Shown: in pieces, positions 6,997 to 13,709 of the stretch
Layout: each line of letters starts with the position of its first letter
Numbering within the stretch: the first letter of the stretch is position 1
Assembly (NCBI GenBank): GCA_030055525.1
Contig: JASFYJ010000001.1
Location: 90,616 to 154,615 of the forward strand
DNA from: Archaeoglobales archaeon
GTDB lineage: Archaea; Halobacteriota; Archaeoglobi; Archaeoglobales; Archaeoglobaceae
Direction of reading: 5' to 3'
DNA length: 64,000 nucleotides
Notes under the pieces: model-generated
Databases searched by the model: none
Told to the model about the DNA's origin: nothing
Seen by the model: the letters and a program-made list of their open reading frames with translations, nothing else
Program-made: the position numbers and the translations under genes

Positions 6997-7395
6997 GTGA
7001 AAGTAAAAGATGCTCCGAAGACAGCGACATCGATAGTTGTTCGTTCAGCAAGCAACGCGAGAGTATCACAATCTAAGGAACCTCTCTTGGAACTTATGCG
7101 GAGGATCTTCAGAAAGGAAGACGTAGCACTTAGAGCCGCGAAATTCTTGACGGTGGTTGAAGAAAGACAAAAAAATGGAAAACCGCTGAGAGTTGAGGAA
7201 TGGGAAAAGATACTCGAAGAACTTGGAATTAAAAAATCTTCTTTTTATTCGATGAGAAACAAGCTCATAGGTGCGGGAATGCTGGTGATAAAAGATGGTG
7301 AGTATCGCTTGTCTGGAGCATTCAGCAAGGATCTTGTAGATATGGCGCGGTGGTGGTGGGTAGCAGTCTTGGGTTACGACTCAGAAAGTCTCTAG
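6997..7395 (+). CDS. Small winged-helix-like protein of unknown function
   Basis: 132 aa, GTG start, helical N-terminus then [35 protein letters not shown]/wing-like pattern. Confidence 0.6.
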
Positions 7396-7548: not shown

Positions 7549-10147
7549 CTTTCAATCCCATCTTGGTCTGATTTGAACTCCATTCTTCTCACCTCCTCAC
7601 TTCTTTTTTAAACTTCCTTTCAATCCCATCTTGGTCTGATTTGAACCCGCTTGGATTTGAGTTTATGTTTATTTTTGCAGTTGTCTTTCAATCCCATCTT
7701 GGTCTGATTTGAACTAACAAAAGAACGATTATAAAAAACGCTTTAGCACCACTTTCAATCCCATCTTGGTCTGATTTGAACAAATTATTACTATTGGAAG
7801 CTGCGATATATTTGTTATTCTTTCAATCCCATCTTGGTCTGATTTGAACAGAAATTCGTGTATGGCATGCAACTCGCATCCATTATTATCTTTCAATCCC
7901 ATCTTGGTCTGATTTGAACGCTCAAGAAAGCCCTATCCTATAGTTGAGCTATTAGTTCTTTCAATCCCATCTTGGTCTGATTTGAACTGTGATAAGCTTG
8001 TTTATAAACTCATTTTCAAAAAGCCTTTCAATCCCATCTTGGTCTGATTTGAACGTTACTTTGTTGTCGATCTGCTCTGCGTAAATTCGCTGCTTTCAAT
8101 CCCATCTTGGTCTGATTTGAACCTGATTTTCGAGCCAGTCTTTACATAGACAAGGCATTCTTTCAATCCCATCTTGGTCTGATTTGAACGCTTCATTAAG
8201 AATATATTTCCACAATTAAATTCCAAACTTTCAATCCCATCTTGGTCTGATTTGAACCACGAGCTTGTGCCGATTCTTGGGGAGAGATGGTATACCTTTC
8301 AATCCCATCTTGGTCTGATTTGAACATAAATTCGACTCGGCGGTATCGGTAGCTGAAACGGCCTTTCAATCCCATCTTGGTCTGATTTGAACGCGAGGAC
8401 TGCGTTGAATTGCAGGTTAGCATTAGCAGCTTTCAATCCCATCTTGGTCTGATTTGAACTGGCATACTGACAGCTGTTACAGGACAAAAAATGCCACTTT
8501 CAATCCCATCTTGGTCTGATTTGAACCTGGTGAATTCGTCTTGGCAAGATTCACAGTAAGCTGCTTTCAATCCCATCTTGGTCTGATTTGAACTGCGTAG
8601 CCTTCGCTTCGCCCTCGGCGGCGGTGGCGGTCTTTCAATCCCATCTTGGTCTGATTTGAACTATGTGTTGAATGCGCTTGTTCCACCCGCGAACGGGTCT
8701 TTCAATCCCATCTTGGTCTGATTTGAACTCTTTACTGATCTTAGTGATCCAACCGTCAAAATCACCTTTCAATCCCATCTTGGTCTGATTTGAACTACTA
8801 CCACCGCAGGATGTTTTAGAGCAATTTTTCAACTTTCAATCCCATCTTGGTCTGATTTGAACTGTCTCTGCTCCAGCAGGTTATTGCTTGATATGCTTTC
8901 TTTCAATCCCATCTTGGTCTGATTTGAACCAAAATCCGCATCTTCAAAACGAGCAGTTCAGTATAGCACTTTCAATCCCATCTTGGTCTGATTTGAACTG
9001 TCTCTGCTCCAGCAGGTTATTGCTTGATATGCTTTCTTTCAATCCCATCTTGGTCTGATTTGAACCAAAATCCGCATCTTCAAAACGAGCAGTTCAGTAT
9101 AGCACTTTCAATCCCATCTTGGTCTGATTTGAACTGTCTCTGCTCCAGCAGGTTATTGCTTGATATGCTTTCTTTCAATCCCATCTTGGTCTGATTTGAA
9201 CGAAGAAAGCAAGGTGAGATGACAATGAAATTTAGCGAACTTTCAATCCCATCTTGGTCTGATTTGAACTTTCTTGATTAGTTCTCCGTTTTGAGATTGA
9301 GCAATGCTTTCAATCCCATCTTGGTCTGATTTGAACCGGCATTGCTCCCAATCGTGGCGAAGCGAAGCCACAAGCTTTCAATCCCATCTTGGTCTGATTT
9401 GAACCTTGATTCGTAAAGCTTTTTTCGTAAATTAAGCATTTCCTTTCAATCCCATCTTGGTCTGATTTGAACTTCCAAAACTTTCGCAAATGTCGCTGAG
9501 AATGTATGTCTTTCAATCCCATCTTGGTCTGATTTGAACTGTATTCTATAGCCTCCTGCACTCTCGTTGAATCCAGCTTTCAATCCCATCTTGGTCTGAT
9601 TTGAACTGAAAAAGAAGACATTGAAACTCTGAAAAAACTGCTTGCTTTCAATCCCATCTTGGTCTGATTTGAACAAGTTGAGAAGAATTGAGCACAAAAC
9701 GAAAGTTGATAAGACTTTCAATCCCATCTTGGTCTGATTTGAACGGGCACCAGATAACCATTGATGCGACAAAGAACAGCCTTTCAATCCCATCTTGGTC
9801 TGATTTGAACATCGAATATCGATACCACAAACAGATAACCACTAACAACTTTCAATCCCATCTTGGTCTGATTTGAACGTATGCGACATAAGACAAGCGT
9901 TTGACTTGATAAACTTTCAATCCCATCTTGGTCTGATTTGAACCATTGTCGGAGTTTTATAAGATTAAACAACGATTCAACTTTCAATCCCATCTTGGTC
10001 TGATTTGAACTACCTACCACCACGCCACGAACCTTAACAGGTTCGCTACTTTCAATCCCATCTTGGTCTGATTTGAACAAATACTCAAGGAGTCAAGTGT
10101 ATAGCAGTTTCTCCAGACTTTCAATCCCATCTTGGTCTGATTTGAAC
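7549..10147 (-). CRISPR. CRISPR array, 39 copies of CTTTCAATCCCATCTTGGTCTGATTTGAAC (+ strand) with 38 spacers of 35-40 nt
   Basis: Repeats located individually from 7549-7578 to 10118-10147; minus-strand repeat GTTCAAATCAGACCAAGATGGGATTGAAAG ends in ATTGAAAG, the usual type I/III crRNA 5' handle, so transcription is inferred on the minus strand. Confidence 0.98.
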
Positions 10148-10260
10148 CCTTATGAATTTTTACTTCTTTCTCAATTTAAAGCTTTCTAATGCCTTCTCTT
10201 ATTTATATAGCATCGCAAACCTCCAAAGTTGCAACTCATTTATAAAGGCATGCGACTTTT
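10148..10260 (-). promoter_or_regulatory. Putative CRISPR leader/promoter
   Basis: AT-rich sequence beside the handle-inferred 5' end of the array, with two minus-strand TATA-like boxes (CCTTTATAAATG at about 10237-10248, CTATATAAATAA at about 10199-10210). Confidence 0.6.
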
Positions 10261-10599
10261 TTCTTAGCATTCTTTTTAAATTTTATTGAATTTAAAAAGC
10301 TTTTTTAAAATCGAAGAAATTTCATCAGGGTAGAGCTTAAGAATAAAAATAGAAAAGCCTAGATTTGCGAAAGGAGGAAGTATAAAAAATAAGTTTTTGT
10401 AATAATAAAGGAAAATTTTATCGCTTGCGACTCGCTGTTTTGGCTTTGATTTTGATTTAAGGCTTTTAAAAGGTTTTTTGTTGAGTTTTGGGGGATTTGC
10501 TTGTGGATAAGAAGTTTGGTTTTTAGAGATAAAATATGAGTCAATTACTGAATTGCCACTTTCAATGTTCATATCTCCAAGAAGCCCAACGAACGAAAG

Positions 10600-10657: not shown

Positions 10658-13709
<3,052 letters not shown>

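Follow-up and report, generated by a model that had tools for sequence, protein, structure and literature searches.

The window analysed here is a stretch of 64,000 nucleotides from contig 8 of the draft genome of an Archaeoglobaceae archaeon of a hot environment (G000; 1.56 Mb in 16 contigs, 98.5% complete). Near its left end is a CRISPR array (Table 1), which is built of 39 exact copies of the 30-bp repeat CTTTCAATCCCATCTTGGTCTGATTTGAAC, all of them identical, and holds 38 spacers with lengths of 35-40 bp. Thirty-five of the spacers are unique, as an earlier sequence-only reading of this DNA had approximately counted. The right flank of the array aligns closely, over ~320 bp, with the corresponding flank of each of the five further arrays of the genome, which lie on contigs 9 and 10 and have the same repeat with a nearly identical leader. 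As the leader lies to the right of position 10147, the crRNAs of the window array would be read from the minus strand.

The only cas1 found in the genome is on contig 10 (C10:63 kb), where Cas1, Cas4, Cas8b, Cas7b, Cas5 and Cas3b are encoded together with Cas7a, Cas3 and Cas8a. The effector genes around this cas1 are those of type I-B and type I-A systems. No cas genes were seen among the ORFs flanking the window array. A Cas8b-like frame in the locus of the C10:72 kb array (L012, 71-964) matches only positions 206-483 of the 485 in the profile; either the frame itself is truncated or it runs off the edge of the locus examined. In the window a frame of 132 aa (6997-7395) adjoins the array on its trailer side and no Pfam match was found for it, while the closest named relatives of a CDC48-like ATPase (11310-13709) are in Archaeoglobaceae metagenome bins, with 84% identity at best, which places the host in that family. 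Two spacers of the window array, at 8594-8631 and 9337-9374, have a 12-nt stretch in common on opposite strands; their GC contents of 0.74 and 0.61 are the top values in the array.

Table 1. Features of the CRISPR array in the window, with positions counted from the first nucleotide of the window.
Feature	Position	Strand	Basis or remark
CRISPR array	7549..10147	-	Exact repeat search; orientation from leader common to five other arrays
Leader of window array	10148..10470	-	Near-identical leader at each of the six arrays
A-B-A-B-A block	8832..9201	-	Perfect 136-bp period; spacers 15-19 from leader
Spacer A copy 1, leader-distal	8863..8899	-	Exact search
Spacer B copy 1	8930..8968	-	Exact search
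Spacer A copy 2	8999..9035	-	Exact search
Spacer B copy 2	9066..9104	-	Exact search
Spacer A copy 3, leader-proximal	9135..9171	-	Exact search
Spacer on leader side of block	9202..9239	-	Identical to spacer of C10:141 kb array
Adjacent spacer pair 9811-9848 + 9879-9913	9811..9913	-	Same order in C9:127 kb array

Spacer copies within and between the arrays

Two spacers, A and B, alternate in the interior of the array, A being spacers 15, 17 and 19 and B spacers 16 and 18 when counted from the leader. The positions originally assigned to the three copies of A and the two of B are correct to the base by exact search, and the exact period of 136 bp that had been claimed for them holds perfectly over the whole block. 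Tandem Repeats Finder gave a period of 136, 2.7 copies, 100% matches and a score of 740. The duplicated units are exact copies of complete repeat-spacer units in unchanged order, bounded by repeats and with 100% identity, and an exact search of the window gave no reverse-complement copies of A or B. The number of identical 37-mer pairs expected by chance among 38 spacers is ~1e-19, and a chance origin of the copies is out of the question. With the leader on the right, the crRNA sequences would be the reverse complements of A and B as they were first written. If the array is normally transcribed and processed, A would account for 3 and B for 2 of the 38 crRNA units, and this raised dose, which the sequence-only reading had claimed and which is plausible, would be a by-product of the duplication.

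Tandem duplicates are present in two arrays of the genome besides that of the window. In the C9:127 kb array a spacer, T, is found at three places, one of which is interrupted by a gap of 99 N, and there are two copies of the window spacer 9811-9848, the second followed by 9879-9913. The sequences on either side of the gap (L010, 1250-1348) nearly join without it. The C10:141 kb array has two tandem single-spacer duplicates in its leader-proximal part, and one spacer is common to the C10:28 kb and C10:72 kb arrays. The seven leader-proximal repeats of the C10:141 kb array (L013) are unlike its other nine (TTTCAATCCCACCCTGGGTCTGATTTGAAC), a pattern that would follow if the first repeat had mutated and every subsequent acquisition had then copied it.

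To set these copies against those of related genomes, redundant spacers were counted in the retrieved arrays of the host and of two congeners (G006 and G008), a comparison limited to these arrays. The host has 12 redundant spacers among 87 and the congeners 1 among 172, one tandem duplicate having been found in an array of the latter. Fisher's exact test gives p = 1e-5, which overstates the case because copies made in a single event are counted as if independent and the N gap lies in one of the 12. The host appears to carry more spacer copies than these two of its close relatives. It is possible, though we hold this only tentatively, that recombination is unusually frequent among its six arrays, which are tied by a single repeat and a single long leader. 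Shuffling and copying of spacers among the loci would then proceed well above the rate in the congeners, and the A-B-A-B-A block would be one mark of this. Only the number of duplication marks in this genome would be unusual, and that number is provisional.

Searches for targets and relatives of the spacers

Targets of A and B were sought in viral contigs, by full-length and 20-mer exact scans, and further by comparing the whole array with phages and plasmids and the spacers with genomes of the genus, family and class; in addition a 24-mer of A was scanned against all species genomes. Spacers other than A and B were searched less fully. No protospacer for A or B was found in the viral contigs, phages, plasmids or 59 genomes of the class, nor did the 24-mer of A give a target in the species genomes. 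The single viral match of A was discarded as it does not extend past 20 nt, and the best plasmid match (Methanothermobacter, H21), which is in 38 pieces, seems to be to the repeat. Self-targeting was also rejected, the host genome having no strong match to A or B outside the array. Neither A nor B occurs in any other of the 59 class genomes, which represent one genome per species, and no strain with an ancestral A-B arrangement was found among them.

Two viral scans with 24-mers common to spacers of the host and of a congener gave no match. The window spacer at 9473-9509 resembles a sequence in G006 (C26:49833-49869) of the same length and with the same boundaries, with 2 mismatches. This was considered as a protospacer and set aside, as it is a spacer in an array of G006 itself; the pair suggests that a common target may have been sampled in two species. 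Likewise, the leader-adjacent spacer of the C10:72 kb array (L012; AAACCACGGAAAGTTAAAAATAAAAGCTTGGTTTGGTAT) overlaps a congener spacer (L038, 3802) on the opposite strand with 5 mismatches, which suggests a possible shared target.

Origin of the block and comparison with known arrays

The leader end is the normal site for acquisition of new spacers and the middle of an array is not. Since new spacers enter at the leader, the position of the block, at spacers 15-19 of 38, points to a later internal rearrangement. Most probably the block arose inside the array by tandem duplication of a unit of two spacers through the identical repeats, by recombination or slippage. The identical 30-bp repeats could mispair, either in an unequal crossover between sister arrays or in replication slippage, and such mispairing would lead to the gain or loss of whole repeat-spacer units. 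On this scheme A-B would have become A-B-A-B, with units being added in later rounds and the last B being removed by deletion; once the first duplication had occurred, more than 100 bp of homology would ease the further rounds. As the six arrays have a common repeat and a leader of ~320 bp, templates for exchange exist.

Unequal recombination or slippage was what the sequence-only reading had proposed. It stands as the best explanation, with which the other arrays of the genome agree, but a single crossover of X-A-B-Y is not sufficient. In a computed search over unequal exchanges, X-A-B-A-B-A-Y could be reached from X-A-B-Y or X-B-A-Y in no fewer than three events within a single lineage, in two rounds where variant arrays may recombine, and in one event from X-A-B-A-Y. 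The half copy, that is the third A, counts against the explanation, as it needs about three events, and so does the absence of the ancestral A-B order from the genomes searched. The breakpoints are not traceable because all 39 repeats are identical. Stepwise duplication with trimming is preferred on the strength of a large survey of duplicate spacer candidates, in which 86% were assigned to duplication and 1% to reacquisition (PMC11472070).

Could the block be an artefact of assembly, with a copy number of A-B other than 2.5 or a mis-assembly of the repeat graph? The genome is a 16-contig draft, and the gap of 99 N in the C9:127 kb array falls within a duplicated spacer, beside further copies of the same spacers, so that copy number in the draft is uncertain and the assembler evidently struggled with such units. 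The window itself, however, is without N, and the B-repeat-A junction cannot be derived from a single A-B by collapse or cutting, only by a confusion of paths within the 30-bp repeat; otherwise it must be present in the reads. Assemblers also tend more to collapse tandem copies than to expand them, and we consider an artefact unlikely. Slightly less probable again is that A, then B, then A once more were acquired, the second A from the same protospacer, with a later duplication of the pair giving A-B-A-B-A. This would leave only one recombination to explain. Single spacers common to arrays without common neighbours would fit with the same spacer being placed twice, and the congener spacer 2 mismatches from 9473-9509 with repeated sampling of a target site; recombination between arrays accounts equally well for the shared single spacers, though, and reacquisition makes up only ~1% of the survey's duplicate candidates (PMC11472070). 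That selection keeps the duplication, the extra crRNA copies strengthening interference against a common virus, seems very improbable. Within the array A and B are indeed raised in copy number, but duplications are expected without selection, and the searches of viral contigs, phages, plasmids and the 59 class genomes gave no target for either spacer.

Read as a tandem duplication, the block is another instance of a well-described CRISPR rearrangement and not a new system. It is a clean example of how the order of an array is not purely a record of time, since recombination copies units in its interior. Should the genome-wide excess of redundant spacers prove real, the lineage could help in measuring the frequency of spacer exchange among arrays with a common leader.

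In Sulfolobus, spacer-repeat regions duplicate within a locus and recombine between the loci of one cell (PMC4390879), and block duplication within archaeal arrays has been ascribed to recombination between direct repeats (PMC4390879; PMC8047081). The present case is similar in that archaeal spacer blocks are duplicated in a locus and exchanged between loci; it differs in its Archaeoglobaceae host, in the 2.5-copy alternating block and in being inferred from one genome rather than from a comparison of strains. Duplication is the usual reading of repeated blocks in arrays (PMC8047081), and the arrays of Streptococcus, Legionella and other bacteria likewise have complete repeat-spacer units copied in tandem, often in the middle of the array, though with other repeats and hosts, and the bacterial cases rest on series of strains or on experiments. 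In a survey of arrays with the same repeat, 11.9% of those in the same-repeat set share some spacers (PMC12814883). The genome described here resembles these in having several arrays with one consensus repeat and some spacers in common, and is distinguished by having six arrays and by tandem duplications besides the sharing.
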